Shown here: positions 589-3,699 of the stretch, one piece after another
Layout: each line of letters opens with the position of its first letter
Numbering within the stretch: the stretch's first letter is position 1
Assembly: GCA_003660975.1 (NCBI GenBank)
Contig: QMVG01000005.1
Location: forward strand, 1 to 64,000
Length of the DNA stretch: 64,000 bases
From: Microcaldota archaeon
GTDB lineage: Archaea; B1Sed10-29; B47-G15
Direction: 5' to 3'
Program-made: the position numbers and the translations under genes
Notes under the pieces: generated by a model
What the model saw: the letters and a program-made list of their open reading frames with translations, nothing else
Database searches by the model: none
Told to the model about the DNA's origin: nothing

Positions 589-1629
589 TTAAACTATATA
601 CTCCAAAATAGTTTGAATAGTTTTTACTCTTTTTTTAGCATATTCAATATATTTTGGATTAATATCCATCCCAATGTAATATCTTCCAAGTTTCTTTGCT
701 ACAGCTGCAGTAGTTCCACTACCTACAAACGGATCAAGTACTATTCCCTTAGAAGGGGATAACAACTTTATCAGCTCTCCAATAATAAATTCCGGAAAAA
801 TTGCGGGGTGTTTTATACCTTTTATTGTTTCTACCGGGCTTTCAATAACATCTCTCTTTAAATCTTTACCCAAAATACGGATGATTGTGAAACCATTTTT
901 TTCTAATTGTATTTTTCTTCCGCCTTCTTGGCCACCAAAGGGTAACGCATGAATACCCTTTATTTTCATTCTAAATCCAGCAATCTTTCCTTCTTTAACT
1001 TCTCTTATAACTTTATTCAGCTCTTTAATTGCTTTCTTTTTCTGCTCTGGAGTAAGACCACTTTTTTCTATAAGTTCAAAATATCGCTCTCCAATTTTGG
1101 AGTTGTTATGATTATTCTTTTTCCTTTTTAAGAGAGAATGTATAGATAAAAAAGAATCTATATCAAAATAATAGTCTTCCGACTTTACAAAATCGAAAAA
1201 CGGTTCTGTAGCACTTACTAATCTTTTCTTATATTGTCTAGGTGTTGGATTTAATTTAACCCACGTTATAACATTAATAAGTTTTAAGTCAGAGAATCTG
1301 TTAAGTACTTCTATTGCAAATCGCCAAGGAACTAAAAGTAAAGAGCCATTTTTATATTTGTCTCCTATATTGAAGACAATATGACCATCTGGTCGTATTA
1401 TTCTTACACATTCCTTAAATACTTTAATTAGATTATCAATATACTCTTCTACTTCCTTTTCATTTCCTATAGCTTCTTTAATTCCATAGTCTCTTTGTTG
1501 AAAATACGGGGGAGAGGTTATTATCATATGTATAGAATCATTTGGAATTTCTTTCAATAATTCAGCACTATCACCTACTAATAATTTGTTCAAAAATTTA
1601 TTTTTCCAACTTATTTCTTTATCTGTCAT
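589..1629 (-). CDS. DNA methyltransferase, probably N4-cytosine (beta-class motif order)
   Basis: Catalytic TSPPYFQQRDYG precedes the SAM-binding motif DPFVGSGTTAAVAKKLGRYYIGMDINPKY. Confidence 0.9.
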   Translation of the reverse strand: MTDKEISWKNKFLNKLLVGDSAELLKEIPNDSIHMIITSPPYFQQRDYGIKEAIGNEKEVEEYIDNLIKVFKECVRIIRPDGHIVFNIGDKYKNGSLLLVPWRFAIEVLNRFSDLKLINVITWVKLNPTPRQYKKRLVSATEPFFDFVKSEDYYFDIDSFLSIHSLLKRKKNNHNNSKIGERYFELIEKSGLTPEQKKKAIKELNKVIREVKEGKIAGFRMKIKGIHALPFGGQEGGRKIQLEKNGFTIIRILGKDLKRDVIESPVETIKGIKHPAIFPEFIIGELIKLLSPSKGIVLDPFVGSGTTAAVAKKLGRYYIGMDINPKYIEYAKKRVKTIQTILEYIV

Positions 1630-2039
1630 TTTCTCTCACCTTTCAATTCATCTTCTATCTCAAACTTTTCATGCAAACATTTTATTTCTCCTTTCAGTAA
1701 ACCTCTCAAAAACTCCTTAATTGTTATCTCTTGTCCAACTCTTGCCTGAGGATAAAATGTTATTGGTTTATTATTTTTATTTCCAAAAACGATAAGTTGG
1801 GGATAAAGAGATTTTGATTTTCTCGTTTGTTTAATTTTTATTCTTTTAGCAACAGAAATACCCCATAAAATCTGATATTTTAAGTCATCTTCTCCTTTTT
1901 CATCAATAACAAATTTTTTTACACTAACTTTAAGTTTTGTTTTTACTTCATTTAGTAAATCTTCTATTTCTCTTACTTCATCTGAGTCCTCTAAAGCACG
2001 GGGAATATAAAATTCAAATCTAAGCATTCTTACCACCAT
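1626..2039 (-). CDS. Hypothetical protein in R-M operon
   Basis: 137 aa ORF overlapping the MTase start by 4 nt (ATGA-type coupling). Confidence 0.65.
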   Translation of the reverse strand: MVVRMLRFEFYIPRALEDSDEVREIEDLLNEVKTKLKVSVKKFVIDEKGEDDLKYQILWGISVAKRIKIKQTRKSKSLYPQLIVFGNKNNKPITFYPQARVGQEITIKEFLRGLLKGEIKCLHEKFEIEDELKGERK

Positions 2040-2183: not shown

Positions 2184-2205
2184 GTTCTAATTTTGAGGTG
2201 TTTTG

Positions 2206-3699
2206 ATGTTGAAGCATTTGAAAAAGATTTTGAGAAAGAATGGCCGTAGTGTAAAGACTAAAAAAAGCCAGGAAGGGAAGGGTATGAAGAAGAAAACTGT
2301 AAAAAAATCCGAAAAGAAGAAAACAAAAACAAAAGCTGTTAAAGCAAGAAAAAAGAGCAAAACTTCTAAGAAAACAGTTAAGAAAAAAGCTGTTAAGACT
2401 TCTACGAAGAAAACTGTAAAGAAGGTGGTAAAGCGTGCAAGAGGTCGGAAGAGTGTTAAGCGTCAGAGGAAAAAACCTAGTTCTTCTAAGAGGGACAAAA
2501 GCCCTAAAAGAAGGGACAAAACTGTACGACGACCAGCAAAATCAAGTAGGCGTGGTAAAAGAAGTTCTAGGACCCACAAGAGCACCCTACATGTTAGCAA
2601 GAGTAAAGCACCCAAAGAAGCTCTTGGGCAAAAAGTTATACCATTAGAAAGTGAGGCCAAGAAAAAAGAGGAAACTGCGATTGAGATATTGGCAAAGGAG
2701 ACAGTTGCAGAACCCCTAATATCTGAGTCTATTGAAGAATCCATGAAAGAGGAGGCTTTGCCTGTTCCAAAAAGTCCGGAAGCAAAACCCAGCAAAACAA
2801 TAAAGTGTCCTGAATGCGGGTCAACTGATGTTTCAATAGACTATGAGAGAGGAGAGGTTGTTTGCAACAGGTGTGGTTTGGTTATCGAGGAGAACCTTGT
2901 TGACTCTGGCCCTGAATGGAGGGCTTTTGATTCAGACCAAAGGGATAAGAGAGCAAGAACAGGGGCTCCTGTGAAGTTTACAAAGCCAAACAAAGGGCTT
3001 GCCACTGAAATAGACCAGTACAACAGAGACATAAGAGGTGTTAAGATAAGCTCCCAGCAGAGGAGCCATATGTACAGGTTGAGGAAATGGCATAAGCGAA
3101 CATCAATATCCTCCTCAATGGAGAGAAACTTGGCGATTGCCCTGTCAGAGCTTGACAGGATTGCCTCTTACTCAGGCCTCCCTCAGAACGTGAGAGAAGC
3201 AGCAGCCTTGCTATATAGAAAAGCGGTTGAGAAGGGGCTGATAAGGGGCAGGCTTATAGAGAGCGTTGTGGCTGCAGTGATATATACTGTTTGCAGGCAG
3301 TACGGTATTCCGAGGACCTTGGACGAGATCTCTGCTGTTAGTGGAATAAACAAGAAGGAGATAGGAAGGACTTACAGGTTTTTGAAGAGAGACTTGGGAA
3401 TAAAGATGCCTTTAACTGACCCAACGCATTATATTCCAAGGTTTGCAAGTGAGCTAGGTCTGTCAGGCCCTGTGCAGGAAAAGGCCAGAGCTTTGCTTAA
3501 GGAAGCCATAGACAAGGGTCTGATTTCTGGAAGAGGGCCAACAGGCGTGGCAGCAGCTGCAGTTTACATAGCAGGAGTTCTTATGGGTGAGAGGAGAACA
3601 CAAAAAGAAGTGGCAGATGTAGCAGGCGTAACAGAAGTTACCATAAGAAACCGCTACAGGGAGCTAAAGGACAGGTTAGGTCTGGATGTGCCTGCCTAA
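2206..3699 (+). CDS. tfb: Transcription initiation factor IIB with Lys-rich H1-like N-terminal extension
   Basis: Zn ribbon [27 protein letters not shown]-reader/core region and two cyclin folds; N-term rich in KKTVKK-type repeats; ATG at 2206 preceded by gaggtg. True N-terminus uncertain (see finding). Confidence 0.9.
2435..2647 (+). CDS. gar1: Gar1-like H/ACA RNP subunit, encoded out of frame inside the tfb ORF
   Basis: GTG start preceded by aaggtgg; product (V/M)[69 protein letters not shown] matches the archaeal Gar1 pattern (G-x-V ... D-x-x-x-x-x-VG-x-V-x-x-V-x-GP-x-x-x-PY ... G-x-x-LY). In-frame TAA at 2429. Confidence 0.8.

Follow-up and report, generated by a model that had tools for sequence, protein, structure and literature searches.

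In the window, as we call the whole stretch of 64,000 nucleotides analyzed here, the gene for the general transcription factor TFB very probably forms a same-strand overprinted pair with gar1 on one transcript, a young histone H1-like tail of TFB being encoded over an ancient gar1. The long form of tfb (2206-3699, plus strand) begins at ATG 2206, ends with a stop codon at 3697-3699 and encodes 497 amino acids, including a basic-acidic N-terminal extension; TTG 2203 is an alternative start of the same open frame. The complete gar1 (2435-2647, plus strand), which runs from GTG 2435 to TAA 2645-2647 and encodes 70 amino acids, lies in frame +1 relative to tfb and wholly inside the tfb frame, and its bases double as those of the Arg/Lys/Ser-rich middle of the TFB tail. 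Ahead of the GTG, the gar1 frame is closed by a stop at 2429. A preliminary description had traced the tfb frame from 2206 through a Lys-rich region to the zinc ribbon and had placed the GTG-initiated frame within it, and both are there as it described them. The source is one metagenome-assembled genome (1.33 Mb in 130 contigs, 89.7% complete, a metagenome-type draft assembly), whose closest relatives by TFB are Diapherotrites-type DPANN archaea.

Four parts follow one another in the TFB protein, all encoded on the plus strand: a Lys-rich, H1-like segment ahead of gar1 (2206-2433, 33 Lys in 76 codons), the Arg/Lys/Ser-rich segment over gar1, an acidic linker joining the basic tail to the core (2648-2799, read from the translation) and a normal, conserved core (2800-3696) that shares up to 82% of its residues with TFBs in the class. 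Pfam matches both the zinc ribbon (PF08271, 1.1e-19), which begins at TFB residue 200 or about base 2803, and the two cyclin repeats (PF00382 in two stretches, 2.7e-46), and the NCBIfam model for transcription initiation factor IIB gives the frame 462 bits. TFB residues 1-198 have no match in Pfam or NCBIfam, and no recognized domain places the tail in the histone H1-like family, its likeness to H1 being compositional only. The Lys-rich segment before gar1 has a coding signature of its own, as KKTVKK occurs three times within it and the codons of these copies differ solely at third positions.

The nested 70-residue frame is a genuine Gar1. It scores 33.8 bits against Pfam Gar1 (PF04410; cut-off 29.3, E 3e-8), which answers the profile search that the preliminary description had called for, and archaeal Gar1 chains of solved structure match it at E 3e-4. 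It falls below the NCBIfam equivalog cut-offs for Gar1, as expected of a fast-evolving copy. The Gar1 hallmarks noticed earlier are borne out by an 18-sequence alignment, in which all five invariant columns are kept (G5, G39, G46-P47 and P51). An AlphaFold prediction (pLDDT 96) has the Gar1 beta-barrel fold and was superposed by Foldseek on Pyrococcus furiosus Gar1 (2hvy_B) with a TM score of 0.90 and an rmsd of 1.4. Both partners of Gar1 are encoded in the genome, Nop10 with a match of 2.8e-20 and a Cbf5-like protein (on contig G000:C1) with TruB_N and PUA domains, its DKCLD domain lying below the cut-off. The nested copy is also the sole Gar1 match in the genome, where a second gar1 had been suggested as a check; since the genome is only 89.7% complete, another could lie in the missing part.

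Across gar1 the TFB frame is under selection, as it is stop-free, rich in Lys and Arg and devoid of F, W, Y and C. With the Gar1 protein held fixed, 50,000 synonymous recodings were drawn at the codon frequencies of 64 window genes, and the TFB frame over gar1 stayed stop-free in 0.25% of them (P = 0.0025). The Lys and Arg residues observed number 29, of at most 35 that the Gar1 protein permits, against a mean expectation of 14.5; this count was reached in 0 of 50,000 recodings, the highest among open ones being 23. Open recodings held 5.5 F/W/Y/C residues and never attained the zero observed. The corresponding z of 5.24 for Lys and Arg exceeds the maximum of 2.69 found among 409 control segments of other window genes, and in the gar1 genes of nine relatives the same phase has stops in every case and z values from -2.6 to 1.6. 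The third frame over gar1 is full of stops and carries no signal of the Lys/Arg type. Permutation of the codons or wobble bases of gar1 itself preserves composition, including the unusual A- and C-rich third positions of this gene, and leaves the TFB-frame signal at P of about 0.001 or less. A chance open TFB frame was rejected by all of these comparisons (recoding, gene segments, relatives' gar1 and composition-preserving permutation), and local purine-rich composition was rejected as the cause by the permutations. Both frames are open and have family matches, and each bears a signature of selection, statistical for the TFB frame and in homology and invariant residues for Gar1. Of the two readings that the preliminary description had offered, these figures speak for the genuine overprinted pair.

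The same source had judged the TFB codons atypical and those of Gar1 normal, which is right in direction: among 70-codon gene segments the Gar1 frame ranks at the 19th percentile (mean ln RSCU 0.062) and the TFB frame over gar1 at the 4th (0.014). In the reverse recoding of the TFB frame, the Gar1 frame was open in 8.6% of cases with at most 38 of 70 residues identical, and Gar1 is therefore not a by-product of the TFB tail. The further claim, that the constraint probably rests on the Gar1 frame, stands in so far as the Gar1 fold and invariant residues are kept; it fails in that the TFB frame is constrained too and that it is Gar1 which has paid for the overlap.

This cost is visible in the relatives. 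In keeping with the preliminary description, gar1 usually precedes tfb immediately and on the same strand, in this class and elsewhere in archaea. In four relatives of the same order the gar1 stop falls about 10-50 nt ahead of tfb, the two genes do not overlap, and the TFB tail is absent or 33 residues long; a separate basic gene upstream of gar1 was not seen in the relatives. Among these four, Gar1 identity is 60-69% and TFB identity 69-81%, whereas between the window and the four it is only 30-41% for Gar1 and 73-82% for TFB. On a fixed topology the Gar1 branch is 1.615 substitutions per site for the window and 0.20-0.35 for the four relatives, and the TFB core branch of the window (0.119) is the shortest in the order. 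Relative to the Gar1 of its order relatives, that of the window has evolved faster by a factor of about 5-8, the exact ratio being soft because support for the branching inside the order is weak. With gar1 just before tfb in the relatives, a fast Gar1 and a slow TFB core, the economical reading would be that gar1 is ancestral and that overprinting by the TFB tail obliged Gar1 to change. In about 270 archaeal genomes a TFB match is present; among the matches listed, with long open frames followed up, no other gar1-TFB dual coding was found. Long open TFB frames over gar1 in three of these genomes (G080, G276 and G038) were set aside as fortuitous because they lie in GC-rich stretches (GC 0.62-0.71) and no start codon precedes gar1 in them.

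Signals for expression are present ahead of both frames. A putative archaeal promoter, read by eye, lies at 2139-2152 on the plus strand (GAAAGCTTTAAATA), about 55-60 nt upstream of ATG 2206, and consists of a BRE-like GAAAG at 2139-2143 and a TATA-like TTTAAATA at 2145-2152; transcription would start near 2175. The Shine-Dalgarno (SD) site of tfb, GAGGTG at 2195-2200 (plus strand), stands 5 nt before ATG 2206 and matches the anti-SD complement over 6 nt, an exact length found at 0.54% of random positions. That of gar1, AGGTG at 2423-2427 (plus strand), stands 7 nt before GTG 2435 and inside the TFB tail frame; a 5-nt match such as this occurs at about 5% of random positions. Between 2435 and 2647 there is no ATG, GTG or TTG in the TFB frame, and given selection on this frame across gar1, initiation must therefore occur upstream of gar1.

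Other explanations have to be weighed against this evidence. Speculative internal starts for a tail-less short TFB exist at 2743-2760 (plus strand), namely ATG 2743 and TTG 2758, and it could be that the frame upstream of about 2689 is untranslated, its open basic stretch being a product of chance or a relic. The relatives do begin TFB shortly past the gar1 stop and AGGAGG stands just before TTG 2758, but this SD is only 2 nt from the start and doubles as two Glu codons, ATG 2743 has none, several nulls exclude chance at about 0.0003-0.0025, and the excellent SD at ATG 2206 and the codon-level signs of protein constraint in the tail speak for translation from upstream, which makes a start confined to the downstream sites improbable. 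The same two sites could instead supply a second, short isoform consisting of the core, in addition to the long TFB from ATG 2206, its translation possibly being linked to the termination of gar1 as in the ancestral order of gar1 and tfb. Such a pair of isoforms would add to overprinting and is compatible with it. It draws on the same AGGAGG and on the closeness of gar1 stop and tfb start in tail-less relatives (a few to about 50 nt), but the gar1 stop of the window lies 95-110 nt before 2743/2758, and with the weak spacing and start codons we consider a short isoform unlikely, if conceivable.

It had also been suggested that three genes, a basic protein from 2206, gar1 and tfb from about 2743, have frames that are continuous by chance. 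A separate small H1-like protein does exist elsewhere in the genome; however, positions 2206-3697 are free of stops, so a basic protein begun at 2206 necessarily runs into TFB unless ribosomes shift frame. Together with the absence of a basic gene before gar1 in the relatives and a selected TFB frame across a start-less gar1, which needs upstream initiation, this leaves the three-gene reading very improbable, and we do not retain it. An assembly or indel artefact that fused an unrelated basic frame to TFB might be suspected in a metagenome-type draft where the sequence is known from the assembly alone, but both frames are intact, each with its own SD, and an indel can yield neither a Lys/Arg-rich TFB frame over all of gar1 nor the acceleration of Gar1; an artefact is exceedingly improbable.

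Under the preferred reading, an overprinted pair, gar1 would be the older gene, situated immediately before tfb as in the relatives, and the tfb frame would have been extended upstream in another frame through all of gar1 to a new start at ATG 2206. TFB would thereby have acquired a basic, H1-like tail some 147 residues long and, behind it, an acidic linker of about 51. Initiation at ATG 2206 (SD GAGGTG) would produce the 497-residue TFB, and initiation at GTG 2435, with the SD AGGTG within the tail, would produce Gar1 for the H/ACA pseudouridylation complex, both the long TFB and Gar1 presumably being made. As the tail would emerge just before the B-ribbon, its function is most likely that of an electrostatic tether to DNA or the nucleoid, which may concentrate TFB locally on the chromosome. 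It seems reasonably likely, on balance, that a universal transcription factor has here gained a tail resembling those of chromatin proteins by overprinting an essential RNA-modification gene in its entirety, that this gene was rewritten several times faster than normal without being broken, and that the synthesis of TFB and Gar1 has become bound to, and competes for, one mRNA segment.

Long same-strand overlaps of two conserved genes are common in viruses; to our knowledge they have very rarely been documented in cells. The Thermus overlap of this kind is located in an N-terminal extension of rnpA. There rpmH, which encodes ribosomal protein L34, lies in a different frame within rnpA, the gene for the RNase P protein; PMC9841429, citing Feltens et al. 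2003, gives the pair as the one bacterial example described until then in which overlapping frames share a start site. This is the closest precedent that we could document for gar1 in tfb. Thermus likewise has a small, ancient and conserved gene wholly nested on the same strand in a longer conserved gene, with both products needed and one mRNA shared. The differences are that the Thermus starts nearly coincide and use one SD, whereas the window's gar1 starts 229 nt inside tfb with its own SD; that the window pair is archaeal and joins a transcription factor to an H/ACA protein; and that the Thermus overlap was tested experimentally, whereas the one described here is known from sequence. Embedded alternative-frame genes have been reported in archaea from ribosome profiling, in work cited by PMC8665328. 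Our literature search returned no report of gar1-TFB overlap or of basic TFB tails, and as far as searched it is new for the gene of an essential transcription factor to enclose a whole conserved gene that a profile can recognize. The pair shares with the conserved archaeal arrangement a gar1 directly upstream of the tfb core on the same strand; elsewhere, however, the two genes are adjacent with an overlap that is absent or trivial. What sets the case apart is that a complete conserved gene is dual-coded with the tail of a general transcription factor, that the direction of overprinting can be inferred (gar1 old, tail new) and that the cost to the older gene can be measured. Annotation of one frame would lose gar1 or shorten TFB.

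Charged TFB tails appear to be a little-explored and repeatedly evolved feature of DPANN transcription. One family of the class (f9; L124, L125 and L126) has the same order of basic tail, acidic linker and core, with tails of 196 and 214 residues in two examples and a truncated third. In L124 and L125 the end of gar1 and the TFB start downstream of it are 4 nt apart, without overlap, whereas the window's gar1 lies inside the tail. As f9 and the window's order sit on separate branches, independent gain of the tails is probable; such low-complexity tails are not alignable between lineages. Since tails recur on TFB and H1-like tails occur elsewhere in the genome, the tail probably acts as a charge-based tether of TFB to the nucleoid or DNA. 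It is of the same low-complexity type (KKTVKK/KKKA) as H1-like chromatin-protein tails, but it is N-terminal, dual-coded and attached to a general transcription factor. In the same genome, an MC1 chromosomal protein (L153; PF05854, 8.9e-30) encoded just past the window (G000:C5, about 69753, minus strand) carries at its C terminus a Lys-rich tail of the H1-like kind, and a 75-residue Lys/Thr-rich protein (L148; G000:C2, about 78613, minus strand) consists almost entirely of KKKTT/KRKTT repeats.

Shorter basic tails are found in many Micrarchaeota TFBs, often with an RGRPR-like core. At seven Micrarchaeota TFB loci (L049, L054, L069, L078, L080, L085 and L101) the N-terminal tail is about 70-110 residues long and contains a recurring KLSIE(D/S) stretch followed by an AT-hook-like RGRPR core; these tails look like a conserved, undescribed TFB N-terminal module. 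A 2.87-Mb low-GC archaeon encodes, just downstream of gar1, a TFB with a 332-codon upstream extension (L144; G267:C1:2358000-2361500), which has many acidic stretches and repeated AT-hook-like GRPKKKK/GPGRPKK motifs. In the window itself, an N6/N4 DNA methyltransferase gene (589-1629, minus strand; PF01555, 8.4e-48) lies upstream of tfb and divergent from it. Adjoining it is a gene for a 137-residue protein without a Pfam match (1626-2039, minus strand), and the two are possibly a restriction-modification module beside the tfb promoter.
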